The notes under the pieces: model-generated
The model's input: only the letters and a program-made list of their open reading frames with translations
What the model was told of the DNA's origin: nothing
Databases searched by the model: none
Translations under genes and position numbers: made by a program
NCBI RefSeq assembly: GCF_001021555.1
Contig: NZ_LDCP01000002.1
Coordinates: 558,001 to 622,000, forward strand
DNA from: Aurantiacibacter marinus
GTDB lineage: Bacteria; Pseudomonadota; Alphaproteobacteria; Sphingomonadales; Sphingomonadaceae
DNA: 64,000 bases
Direction of reading: 5' to 3'
Shown here: piece after piece, positions 43,103-47,154 of the stretch
How positions within the stretch are numbered: the stretch's first letter is position 1
Layout of the letters: the number at the start of each line of letters is the position of its first letter

Positions 43103-43132
43103 AATTCGTAACTCCTTCGGAGTGGGGCGGTG

Positions 43133-43208
43133 CCAGCCCTCTCCCCCTCCCAGCCACCCGATACCGTATCGGATAATCATCGGGTGGCTGGGAGGGGGAG
43201 AGGGCTGG
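43133..43208. repeat. Perfect inverted repeat with 30-bp arms between rpsL and rpsG
   Basis: The arm at 43133-43162 (starting CCAGCCCTCTCCCCCTCCCA) is the exact reverse complement of 43179-43208. A 16-base loop separates them. A shorter 15-base palindrome, CCGATACCGTATCGG, spans the end of the left arm and part of the loop (43159-43173) and could compete with it. The complement ends sharply at both outer edges, and no target-site duplication is apparent by eye. It looks like a small palindromic element or a very stable regulatory hairpin, 31 bases upstream of the rpsG start. Confidence 0.9.
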
Positions 43209-43293
43209 AACCGCAAGGGAGGGACGGATGTCCCGACCGCACCCAACAAATAACTCCCCGCCGCAAGCGCCATGCTCACGGCGAACAAAAACC

Positions 43294-43665
43294 TTATTTC
43301 GGGCGCTTGGCGCCGTACTTCGAACGGGACTGGCGGCGATCTTTCACACCCTGCGTGTCGAGCACGCCGCGCAGCACGTGATAACGCACACCGGGAAGGT
43401 CGCGTACACGGCCGCCGCGGATCAGCACCACGGAGTGTTCCTGCAGATTGTGGCCTTCACCCGGAATATAGGCGATGACTTCGCGCTGGTTGGTCAGACG
43501 GATCTTCGCAACCTTACGCAGTGCCGAGTTCGGCTTTTTCGGGGTCGTCGTGTAGACGCGCGTGCAAACGCCGCGCTTCTGCGGGCTGGATTCCATCGCC
43601 GCAGACTTGCTCTTCTTGACGATGGGACTGCGGCCCTTGCGGACCAGCTGGTTAATAGTCGGCAT
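43294..43665 (-). CDS. rpsL: 30S ribosomal protein S12
   Basis: Decoding-centre protein, 123 residues from the ATG at 43665; the upstream frame runs through repeat DNA and is rejected. [20 protein letters not shown], the [20 protein letters not shown] segment (with Lys residues where streptomycin resistance mutations occur in other bacteria) and [20 protein letters not shown] are conserved and wild type in appearance. It is first in the str operon. Confidence 0.98.
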
Positions 43666-43706
43666 TCGTTTCTCTTCACCTGATTTAGGAAGCACCCACA
43701 TCAACC

Positions 43707-43796
43707 CCGTTCGTGCTGAGCTTGTCGAAGCACTGCCCTTTTCAAGGCAAGGCCGAAACAAGGAAAACAACCCTTCGACAAGCTCAGGGCGAACGG
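43707..43796. repeat. Inverted pair of dispersed REP-like repeats upstream of rpsL
   Basis: CCGTTCG..CTGAGCTTGTCGAAG at 43707-43730 and its near-complement CTTCGACAAGCTCAG..CGAACGG at 43773-43796 match at 22 of 24 positions. Repeats of this sequence type (TTCGACAAGCTCAG) are, to my knowledge, common between genes in sphingomonads and some other proteobacteria. In the antisense frame they give the spurious peptide pattern LSLSKG/ELVEG often seen in bad gene calls. Copy number in this genome cannot be judged from one window. Confidence 0.75.
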
Positions 43797-43874
43797 AAGA
43801 AGGTGTGGAGACCTCCAAATGAGTGGCACCAAAGGCACCGGATGGATTGTTTGAAAGGTCCGTGCAAATAAAGC

Positions 43875-43888
43875 CCGTTCGTCCTGAG
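43875..43888 (+). repeat. Truncated third copy of the REP-like repeat
   Basis: CCGTTCGTCCTGAG matches the first 14 bases of the repeat type at 43707 (one base different) and then diverges. It lies between two copies of the 12-base direct repeat CAAAGGCACCGG (43830-43841 and 43964-43975). This points to repeated rearrangement of the rpsL leader region. No gene was found from 43666 to 44165; besides these repeats it holds a GGCGGTA/TACCGCC hairpin (43996-44013) and a terminator. Confidence 0.5.
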
Positions 43889-44016
43889 GCTGCCAGAGGA
43901 CATTGCCTCCAACCCGCCGGACGCGGACAATTGCACGAGCCTGAAACACTCCACCCGAACGCACAAAGGCACCGGGTTACTTTGGCGGCTGCCCCGGCGG
44001 TATCGCTACCGCCCCA

Positions 44017-44050
44017 ATAGAAAAGAGCCCCTCACTAATGCGAGGAGCCC
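44017..44050 (-). terminator. Probable terminator between the GHKL ATPase gene and rpsL
   Basis: Minus-strand GGCUCCUCGC pairs with GUGAGGGGCU around AUUA (three wobble pairs), followed by CUUUUC. It lies about 115 bases past the stop of the GHKL ATPase gene and would keep its transcript from entering the str operon. Confidence 0.65.
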
Positions 44051-44165
44051 CGGGACATGACCGGCAATGTTCAGCTCTATCTGACCATGGCCGCTGGTTA
44101 GAGCATGCCTTGGATGAGGGCGCACTTAATTGGATTTGGTGTGGGGGTCAAGTGATCGCTATCTA

Positions 44166-46136
44166 CTACTCGTATTTGTTTCTCTGGCGCTCACTGCTGG
44201 CCTCTGGCTCATTCAAAGCCTCAATCAACTCTGAAAGAACTATCAAATCGCAAAGTTTCGCCCCATTTTCTAAATCGGTCAAAGTATGGGTAACTCCATG
44301 GAACTGTCGCTGATCTGCATTCTCAGGTATCAATAAAGAGGTAATGCCATAACGCTCAGAATAAAGGCTTCCGGTTTGCCAACAAACGCAAAGATCGACA
44401 TCATTCACATTTTTGTCATGCGTATCGAAGTCCTCGACAAGCCCATCCAATGAAAATTTGTATTCTAAAATGCGAGGTGGTGTGACCTTCCCACTGAGCG
44501 CCTCAGATAGTTCCAATGTCACTCCCAACGGATTTGAGGCCTCATCATAGACATAAAGTTCGCTGGGCAAGTCAAAAGCAATTTTTACTAAGCCATCATA
44601 TGTAAAACGTTCGTTTGTGGACATAATTTGAAGCCCACGCACCACTCCGCCAGCGATAAGTTGATTGAAAAGTGCAATTACGTCCTGCTCGCGCGTTGGC
44701 TCTGAGGTCACAGATACCCGCTCGGTAGGAGCAAAGAAATGTTCGCTCTCAAGCTTAAGAGGCAAATTACCTTCATGCGCGAGCATTCTCTCCTTCCACT
44801 CACTAACTTTTAATTCCCGCACCAAATCTGGAGCAACTCCAGTGTTCGCCTTTAGCTGAGAACGCAGTTTCGCAAGTATGCTATCCGTTATTTTCTTCGC
44901 AACCGATTTTGAAAAATCTGCCAATTCTCGATGAAAACCCTTTCGGCCCATGTCTGGAGAATAATTGTCGAAATGAACCAAAAAATGGATTTGATTTTGG
45001 CGGCCGATGTTGCGGTCCAATGGGATTACGAGCGGCTCTCCCTGAGGCATACGGTTTGCGGCAAGCTGTATCCCCGCATGAAGAACTTTGTAATTGCTCC
45101 TAATGCCCAAGCTTTTATTAAATTTTGTCCAAAGTTTAGCGGTGTATCCAAATTCTACAGAAATAGTCGGAACGTATCTTTCTAATACCTCTCGTTCCTC
45201 CTCAGCTAGATCAGCACCCATAATTTGCGCGATTTCATCTGCTGACCAGGTGTCCCAGAGAAAATCCAATTGACGAAATTTATCCGGAAGTGCTCGACCC
45301 GGACCAAACTTTTCAAATAGTCTCCGTGCTTCCGCATCGACATCCCGTATTCTCGCGATCTTCCCACCTTGCTTATGAAGCCACAAGTAAGCGACACTGT
45401 CGGGCTCGATCGAGGTTTCGCCATTTTCGCTTCTAACTACGATTTTGGTCTTTATGGAGTCATCTTCCACAACAGAACCTAGGCCAGTTTTTATGGCCAA
45501 AATGTTTGCCCACTTCTCAGCGTCGTCGGCCATCACCCAGCTCAGCTTTCTAGGGTGAGTGGAGTCATCAAATCTGACTGTTATCGATACGCCACGCTCA
45601 AAGTTACTGAACTCAGGATCGGCAGACTGGCCGTCGGAGGGTTCAATCCTTGGATTTGCCGCCGCACCCATTTCATAGAGCCAATTTCTAGCTCCTCGGA
45701 TCCGACCGGCGGCCGCAAATCCAGGTGTCTTGGTTTCAATCCTCATGTAATTGAATCCGTACGCTACATACGTCGCGCCAACGCCTTTGTGGCCCCTTGT
45801 GTTTCCCGACTTGAAAGAGAAATTAGGAGCTAAAAATTGCTGGAATTTTTGCTCATCGAGACCAATTCCGTTGTCTGATACTGTCAGCGAATTATTCACA
45901 ATATCTATTAGAATAGACACAGTCGGAACATAATTTGCTTTGTTGCCATCGCTCGCCTCGAGAGCCCGCCTGGCCTCCACGGCATCGAGTGCGTTTTGGA
46001 TTAACTCGGAGAATGGATCATACCAACCGACATATGAACTCAGGATGTTAGTAATCTCGCGCTTTAGCGCCGCAAGTGCGGCCTCGTTCACGTGGGTATT
46101 CTTAAATTCCAGAGGATCGAATGGGACGAAGGTCAT
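44166..46136 (-). CDS. Lone GHKL (HSP90-like) ATPase, possible defence protein
   Basis: A 656-residue protein with an N-terminal GHKL ATPase: N-box ELIQNALDA (Glu44, Asn48), G1 box DNGIGL (88-93) and G2 box GHKGVGATY (115-123), spaced as in HSP90, MutL and MORC ATPases. A long middle region follows with no motif I recognise. The C-terminal domain contains ILEYK (556-560) followed by NDVDLCVCW. This hydrophobic-E-x-K pattern with a following strand could mark a PD-(D/E)XK-type nuclease fold, but that is an inference. The gene is visibly AT-richer than the ribosomal genes beside it and has no partner gene, signs of recent acquisition. Orphan proteins of this layout occur among anti-phage candidates. 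No signal peptide or membrane segment. Confidence 0.75.
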   Translation of the reverse strand: MTFVPFDPLEFKNTHVNEAALAALKREITNILSSYVGWYDPFSELIQNALDAVEARRALEASDGNKANYVPTVSILIDIVNNSLTVSDNGIGLDEQKFQQFLAPNFSFKSGNTRGHKGVGATYVAYGFNYMRIETKTPGFAAAGRIRGARNWLYEMGAAANPRIEPSDGQSADPEFSNFERGVSITVRFDDSTHPRKLSWVMADDAEKWANILAIKTGLGSVVEDDSIKTKIVVRSENGETSIEPDSVAYLWLHKQGGKIARIRDVDAEARRLFEKFGPGRALPDKFRQLDFLWDTWSADEIAQIMGADLAEEEREVLERYVPTISVEFGYTAKLWTKFNKSLGIRSNYKVLHAGIQLAANRMPQGEPLVIPLDRNIGRQNQIHFLVHFDNYSPDMGRKGFHRELADFSKSVAKKITDSILAKLRSQLKANTGVAPDLVRELKVSEWKERMLAHEGNLPLKLESEHFFAPTERVSVTSEPTREQDVIALFNQLIAGGVVRGLQIMSTNERFTYDGLVKIAFDLPSELYVYDEASNPLGVTLELSEALSGKVTPPRILEYKFSLDGLVEDFDTHDKNVNDVDLCVCWQTGSLYSERYGITSLLIPENADQRQFHGVTHTLTDLENGAKLCDLIVLSELIEALNEPEASSERQRNKYE

Positions 46137-46392
46137 CGCGTGTGAGAACTTTCATAGATAGGGGATTTGTCTTTCGACTACGCGCAACAGACTCACAAAG
46201 AAACTGTTTTCAAGTGAACGTGCATGGCAGCTTTGGCAAAGCGGCTGTCCAACTTGCATTGCGCGCAACAGCTTTTGGTAACGGCAAAAATCACTGAGCA
46301 GAAAAGGGGAAAACAGAACGGGAGTTTCGAGATTTCCCTAATTTTGAGGTTATCACTTTCCTACACCCTCACCCCCATGCTCCCCATCCCGC

Positions 46393-47154
46393 ATGAGCAA
46401 TCACCACACCAACACCCGCGCTATCGCCAGCCCCCTCTCTGAAACAGCGCCCGAGGACCGTCTCACCGATCCCGAAATCTCCGCGCACCCCCAGACACCT
46501 CGCCGCGAGGACCCGGCGGTGCGGGCCCGGGCGCGGGCCACCAGCTACGTCACCGCGCCCGCCGCCTCGCCCCTCCCCGAGGATGATCCGTTGCTGGACT
46601 TCACCCCCGTCCCGCACACCAATCCGCGCAAGAACTCCATCACGCCTGATCGCCAGCGCCGCTTTATCGCGCATCTGGCCGCCACCGGCATCGTCAAACA
46701 GGCCGCCAGGCACATCGGCGCTTCGCTGGAGGCTTTGTACAAGCTGCGCCAGCGGCCCGGTGCAGAGGGCTTTCGTGCTGCGTGGGAGGCGGCGGTTGAT
46801 TGCGGCATTGCGCGGCTGGAGGATTGCGCGCTCCAGCGGGCGATAGAGGGGGAGGAGCGGCTGGTCGTCTCCTCCGGCAAGCTGCTCGGCACGGAGCGGC
46901 GGCATAACGAGGCGCTGGTGATGTTCCTCCTGCGCCAGCGCCGCGCAGACCGTTACGGCGCGCAGGTGCTGCCCGGCCACCCGCTGTACGAACGCATCCG
47001 CGCAGAGGTGCTGGCAGAGCACCGCTCCGCCATGCGCCAGAGCAAGGACGAAGTGCTCGCCAGCCTCAATGCCAAGCTCGACCTGATGCGCGAACGCAAG
47101 GCGCAAGCGCAGCGCCTCCTGTCAGAGGGCGGGCTGGAACCGGCGGGAAAGTAG
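46393..47154 (+). CDS. HTH protein of unknown role (terminase-small-subunit-like/sphingomonad family)
   Basis: A 253-residue protein with a disordered Pro/Ala/Arg-rich N-terminus (1-80). A helix-turn-helix-like region follows, RQRRFIAHLAATGIVKQAAR then HIGASLEALYKLRQR, where the tri-helical pattern fits DNA binding. Next is EAAVDCGIARLEDCALQRAI and a helical C-terminal half rich in Arg, Glu and Leu. Similar proteins occur in sphingomonads with annotations such as terminase small subunit or plain hypothetical. No phage gene is adjacent, so a regulatory role is equally possible. It is divergent from the GHKL ATPase gene and may or may not be part of the same insertion; its high G+C argues against it. 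Confidence 0.65.
   Translation: MSNHHTNTRAIASPLSETAPEDRLTDPEISAHPQTPRREDPAVRARARATSYVTAPAASPLPEDDPLLDFTPVPHTNPRKNSITPDRQRRFIAHLAATGIVKQAARHIGASLEALYKLRQRPGAEGFRAAWEAAVDCGIARLEDCALQRAIEGEERLVVSSGKLLGTERRHNEALVMFLLRQRRADRYGAQVLPGHPLYERIRAEVLAEHRSAMRQSKDEVLASLNAKLDLMRERKAQAQRLLSEGGLEPAGK

Follow-up and report, generated by a model that had tools for sequence, protein, structure and literature searches.

A GHKL ATPase-transducer protein with a putative C-terminal nuclease domain, encoded in a slot of variable cargo next to the str operon of Aurantiacibacter marinus, as a candidate single-gene defence system

The described systems closest to the gene considered here are proteins that carry a GHKL ATPase and a nuclease domain in one chain. 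VcSduA, a Shedu protein of type I-D, has a GHKL N-terminus and a Shedu nuclease and has been tested experimentally, the substitutions E27A and K557A each abolishing defence (PMC12137116). Iyer, Abhiman and Aravind (2008) described the paraMORC3 proteins, in which a GHKL ATPase and an S5 domain are followed by an RE-fold domain with an E-D-ExK motif; some of these stand alone, and paraMORCs are also found in restriction-modification (R-M) operons (PMC2292703). The same authors gave GhXhhpXXRhl as the motif of the MORC S5 domain (PMC2292703).

The gene compared with these systems lies in the window, the whole 64,000-nucleotide stretch of A. marinus DNA analysed here (contig NZ_LDCP01000002.1, positions 558,001 to 622,000). 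It is an intact open reading frame on the minus strand (44166..46136, stop codon included) which runs from an ATG at 46136 and encodes 656 amino acids, its delimitation being backed by the ORF list, homologous loci and purifying selection. An earlier note on this DNA, made from the letters alone, had singled it out as an AT-rich gene with intact ATPase boxes, and both points are borne out: the G+C fraction is 0.467 against 0.593 for the remaining window, and the GHKL (Bergerat) domain, residues ~14-180 (45597..46097, minus), contains the N-box E44/N48 (45993-46007, minus), the G1 box DNGIGL at residues 88-93 (45858-45875, minus) and the G2 box GHKGVG at residues 115-120 (45777-45794, minus). 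In an alignment of 36 full-length relatives, residues E44, Q47, N48, D51, D88, G90, K117, G118, V119 and G120 are invariant, and a profile search detects HATPase_c/HATPase_c_3 in 35-36 of the 36. The extent of the domain follows from these profiles, from NCBIfam matches and from the fold match described below. Pfam and NCBIfam recognise residues ~42-122 alone, as a GHKL ATPase, with HSP90 and sacsin types nearest and below family cut-offs, and PADLOC likewise matches the window protein at the GHKL level only. Assignment to a known family was rejected, as Pfam, PADLOC, NCBIfam and PHROGs recognise the GHKL part only, and the family libraries searched hold no name for the window family.

The note had seen in the middle of the protein some 430 residues with no known motif; this view has to be revised, most of that stretch being a transducer/S5 domain as in HSP90, Top6B, GyrB and MORC. 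In a structure model of the whole protein (pLDDT 85), residues 14-432 match HSP90 with a Z of about 20 in VIA-align, and the same residues match HSP90, Top6B, MORC3/4, GyrB and SMCHD1 with Z of 16-21, so that residues 14-432 are confidently predicted to make up an entire GHKL ATPase-transducer (S5) module, the transducer itself, delimited by the VIA-align fold match, spanning residues ~181-432 (44841..45596, minus). The likeness to HSP90/HtpG, Top6B, GyrB and MORC thus covers the GHKL and transducer fold, whereas the C-terminal part differs, VIA-align giving no HSP90 match past residue 432. Scores against two HSP90/HtpG models lie far below the cut-offs (28.3 bits against 371 for HtpG and 35.2 against 455 for the second). 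The segment corresponding to the MORC S5 motif, GIQLAANRMPQ (355-365), departs from it in having an invariant M363 where MORC has R.

The last ~175 residues of the protein form a separate domain, a putative divergent PD-(D/E)XK nuclease (residues 482-656; 44169..44693, minus) proposed from its invariant residues, a structure model and weak fold matches. The earlier note had pointed to a C-terminal ILEYK...NDVDLCVCW segment, which is present and in which E558, K560 and W586 are invariant. All 36 full-length relatives share E483 and D485 (44682-44690, minus), D514 (44595-44597, minus) and E558-Y-K560 (44457-44465, minus; E558 and K560 invariant), and the distant Halobacterium copy still shows a readable E-D-ExK set together with the ATPase residues. 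Modelled alone (pLDDT 90), the domain has the element order H29-41, E48-53, E61-66, E101-108, H109-117, E128-133, and these elements bear the E-D-ExK set as model residues E29, D60, E104 and K106: E483 and D485 lie on the first helix, D514 precedes a strand, and the strand after that bears E558-Y-K560. This helix/strand/helix order is that expected for PD-(D/E)XK, although the structural matches to the model are weak. The best of them, among the families on the VIA list to which these comparisons are confined, is EndoMS/NucS (Z 4.1, rmsd 3.6 over 92 residues, 13% identity), a protein that differs in having no GHKL part; MspJI, AgeI, SPARDA, LmuA, Cap4, SgrAI and Ecl18kI follow with Z no higher than 4.1, values which by the warning of the tool itself may mean little. 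At its start the NucS alignment pairs model residue 28 (R482) with chain residue 126, which would put E483 on the helix glutamate of the NucS active site.

Neither Pfam, PADLOC nor a PDB sequence search recognises a nuclease fold in this domain, and Foldseek against the PDB and viral models returns nothing significant. This want of a confident match, by profile or by Foldseek, leaves some room for a defence protein whose C-terminal domain is not a DNase and which acts instead as an RNase, through nucleotide or protein hydrolysis, or as a sensor or dimerisation module, in abortive infection. Beyond E-D-ExK, residues K575, W586, R610, G614, T616 and H617 are also invariant among the 36 relatives, which would suit such a protein, and K575, W586, R610 and H617 in particular could indicate a different chemistry. 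We nonetheless consider this unlikely, as the E-D-ExK residues are invariant and their order along the helix and strands is the one expected, PD-(D/E)XK nucleases make up 18 of the 24 rows of weak structural matches by our own count and all of ranks 1-8, and the recurrent neighbours of the relatives are genes of DNA R-M systems. A very divergent PD-(D/E)XK nuclease is the plausible reading, and it is one that we infer, since it rests on the invariant residues and the weak fold matches. Of the composite protein proposed in the note, the ATP clamp is thus upheld by structure prediction, and for the nuclease the invariant motif stands while the fold match stays weak. Neither of the two findings named in the note as counting against its proposal turned up: the gene does not recur at this position throughout the family, and nothing observed marks the C-terminus as unrelated to nucleases. 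A profile search of 385 genomes with the C-terminal domain returned full-length members only, and no other architecture.

Set beside VcSduA, the window family shares a single-gene build with an N-terminal GHKL ATPase, its motifs included, within one fused protein, a clamp-like middle part, a C-terminal nuclease motif and a stand-alone, sporadic occurrence. VcSduA, however, bears the DUF4263/SduA_C nuclease, and none of the 36 members of the window family matches PF14082 (SduA_C/DUF4263), even at E 1; a profile comparison of the window C-terminal domain with the SduA_C set in hhalign gives P 0.23. The family may therefore be likened to VcSduA in its working and is not filed as Shedu, because the SduA_C match is absent from the 36 members and the profile comparison finds the domains unrelated. 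With paraMORC3 the likeness extends to the order GHKL, S5 (the module at residues 14-432) and C-terminal E-D-ExK, and to the occurrence of some members alone and others near R-M genes, but the paraMORC3 nuclease is RecB-like. A similar-looking nuclease is found in a second family of GHKL and ExK nuclease-like fusions (L117:8372-10378, L131:3288-5306, L134:1489-3507, L135:1519-3522), which have no PADLOC match; its first member is a GHKL protein distinct from that of the window, with the nuclease-like motif ILEFKRP in its C-terminal part, and lies in a sister genome, in the same chromosomal slot as the window gene. This L117-type nuclease does not align with the window C-terminus (hhalign probability 0.3%, P 0.46, with a shallow profile), whereas it does prove related to SduA_C (P 2.5e-4), the in-family control giving 2.4e-53. 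As judged from these profiles, in which the L117-type represents nucleases of paraMORC3-like appearance, the window family is a separate and unnamed variant of the paraMORC3/VcSduA architecture; it may also equal a subset of paraMORC3. A GHKL protein at L115:1213-3237, which has a partial SduA_C match and adjoins a C5 methyltransferase, is a VcSduA-like relative.

Homologous loci number 49 in GTDB genomes, the nearest relative among them being in Sphingomonas (69%) and other carriers including Pseudomonas, Luteimonas, Rhodocyclaceae, Nitrospirales, Chloroflexi, Lachnospiraceae and Microcoleus. A protein search adds full-length homologs on Rhizobium plasmids (39%) and on a Halobacterium plasmid (24%), and one homolog (40%) occurs in another genus of the same bacterial family. 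The family is scattered over Proteobacteria, Chloroflexi, Nitrospirota, Cyanobacteria, Bacillota and one haloarchaeon, and the gene is rare in its class (2/385 genomes). In the tree it groups with Sphingomonas (98/93), and copies from Pseudomonas cichorii, Rhodocyclaceae and Luteimonas share a 14-row clade with it. This placement is compatible with horizontal transfer but, coming from a tree of contigs, does not prove it. A phage or viral origin was rejected, there being no match in phage records and none in IMG/VR viral contigs. By sequence divergence the gene is under strong purifying selection: dN/dS is about 0.04 in two close pairs, the only ones where dS is estimable, differences from the nearest relative at the three codon positions are 0.28/0.19/0.63, and third-position changes predominate in the other relatives. 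A stop or a change of frame interrupts some copies (L005:11983-13974, L089 and L092, from Halobacterium, Rhizobium sp. and Methylobacterium; the Halobacterium copy has an in-frame stop), which suggests recurrent decay.

Most relatives stand alone, and their variable neighbours, annotated mostly by eye from motifs, comprise resolvases, integrases, transposases, a type III mod gene and McrBC-like genes. PADLOC families near and far from the relatives number 90 against 11, which is suggestive but carries little weight, the count not being made per protein. A C5 methyltransferase is present in 7/50 loci and a Vsr-like gene in 5/50; the Rhizobium plasmid copies adjoin a set of C5 methyltransferase, Vsr, DUF2357, helicase and DUF1998 genes, and the Halobacterium copy adjoins a C5 methyltransferase and further GHKL-like genes. 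These neighbours, like the paraMORCs of R-M operons, would suit a paraMORC-type subunit or regulator of an R-M system whose methyltransferase, helicase or Vsr is encoded nearby or elsewhere, the window copy being an orphan leftover. Such a role appears rather improbable: most relatives and the window copy lack any such partner, and the orphan copy keeps an intact reading frame and every catalytic residue, within a family under purifying selection.

The gene occupies an AT-rich insert of ~2.2 kb (44153..46355, G+C 0.466), delimited by homology to sister genomes, which stops at 44152 and returns at 46353-46356. On the left lie rpsL (S12; 43294..43665, minus), the first gene of the str operon according to the ORF list and sister comparison, and, as the slot border, a promoter-like CTTGAC-N17-TAAGTG with the start of a long rpsL leader (43930..44152, minus; alignment of 15-17 genomes). 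The right border is a genus-conserved gene for a terminase-small-subunit-like HTH protein (46393..47154, plus; phrog_4044, E 5e-19), which most sisters carry in syntenic position. Since the left edge is promoter-like str sequence, the slot would be a divergent intergenic region, with a gene on either side reading away from it. The left edge is sharp because the str promoter is conserved; site-specific integration was rejected, the insert ends having no repeats, and the window holds no tRNA that could serve as integration target.

A comparison of the locus in sister strains, as the note had suggested, shows the order rpsG-rpsL-[slot]-TerS-like gene-PPC protein-GNAT-LysR largely kept and the slot contents different. 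The gene itself is found in none of 36 same-genus genomes (0/36). All 11 measured cargos are AT-rich relative to their surroundings (0.46-0.54 against 0.58-0.67), and several are known defence genes: AriA with AriB, two ThsB, a Drt6/Drt4 reverse transcriptase (E 1e-147), AbiU (AIPR) and PDC-M36A, besides a type II R-M pair of C5 methyltransferase and NotI-like REase, an Mrr_cat with a ParB-like protein, SLFN_AlbA_2 and HipA_2. Among the 27 other slots readable throughout their length, at least 6 contain a protein that PADLOC matches at 1e-9 or better, a lower bound because part of the cargos was scanned, and none of the 45 other window proteins has a match at 1e-9; among scanned cargo proteins the positive rate is 8/10, a biased figure as these were picked as interesting-looking. 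Cargos outside defence include a 5'-nucleotidase, an asparagine-synthase-like protein and membrane proteins, and the usual content of the slot may be a set of three genes, one with a LuxR-like HTH, that is seen repeatedly. Metabolic cargos of this kind, the integrases, resolvases and transposases common among neighbours of the relatives, and the closeness of the GHKL part to HSP90 and sacsin would accord with a housekeeping or mobile-element gene, such as an HSP90-like chaperone or a factor of DNA repair or topology, that rides in the slot as a non-defence passenger. This we regard as very improbable: the protein is not HtpG by score, its HSP90 match ends at residue 432 and the slot is rich in defence genes, and a housekeeping role is set aside because the gene is absent from the genomes of nearly all relatives.

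The gene is a good defence candidate because the sister slots carry known anti-phage genes, and it probably encodes a single-gene defence protein, horizontally acquired into the cargo slot beside the str operon, which combines an ATP clamp with a C-terminal nuclease. The claim of a stand-alone defence gene in the earlier note thereby gains strong support from context, the function itself being suggested by this context and the VcSduA precedent. In the proposed mechanism the protein would dimerise, and ATP binding at the GHKL domain would close the transducer arms so that they clamp invading DNA, or else a nucleoprotein or DNA structure made by the phage. The closed clamp would bring the two C-terminal nuclease domains together to cut the bound DNA, and hydrolysis, with E44 as general base, would reset it. 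Discrimination would depend on the structure that is bound or on a modification of the phage, and not on an unmethylated site, because most copies have no dedicated methyltransferase. The wider reading, at somewhat less than an even chance, is that of an unnamed, widespread single-gene antiviral family with an HSP90/Top6B-like ATP clamp, a new PD-(D/E)XK lineage unrelated in sequence to Shedu and a defence hotspot at the str promoter. If true, the GHKL-clamp and nuclease architecture of defence, so far known from VcSduA, would have a second, independent nuclease lineage, and the ATP clamp might be a reusable sensor or gate module. The rpsL-side slot is in any case a practical place to seek more defence genes in the genus.

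The borders of the slot have features of their own. The TerS-like HTH gene is multicopy within genomes, and one copy (L008:12231-12836, 34% identical) also adjoins a homolog of the GHKL gene (G205) at another site, downstream of thiC. The rpsL leader is long (~485 nt; 43666-44152, minus). About 220 nt of it show strong conservation across 15-17 sister genomes, and this part includes a terminator-like hairpin (44051-44024) with T's after it; the leader matches no Rfam family and is possibly an attenuator or ribosomal leader RNA. Rfam matches at 43126-43215 and 43654-43802 were dismissed, being below gathering scores and on palindromic repeats. Such REP-like repeats flank rpsL at 43707-43796, where the pair is 24 nt long with 92% complementarity, and at 43129-43212, where they yielded spurious miRNA matches.
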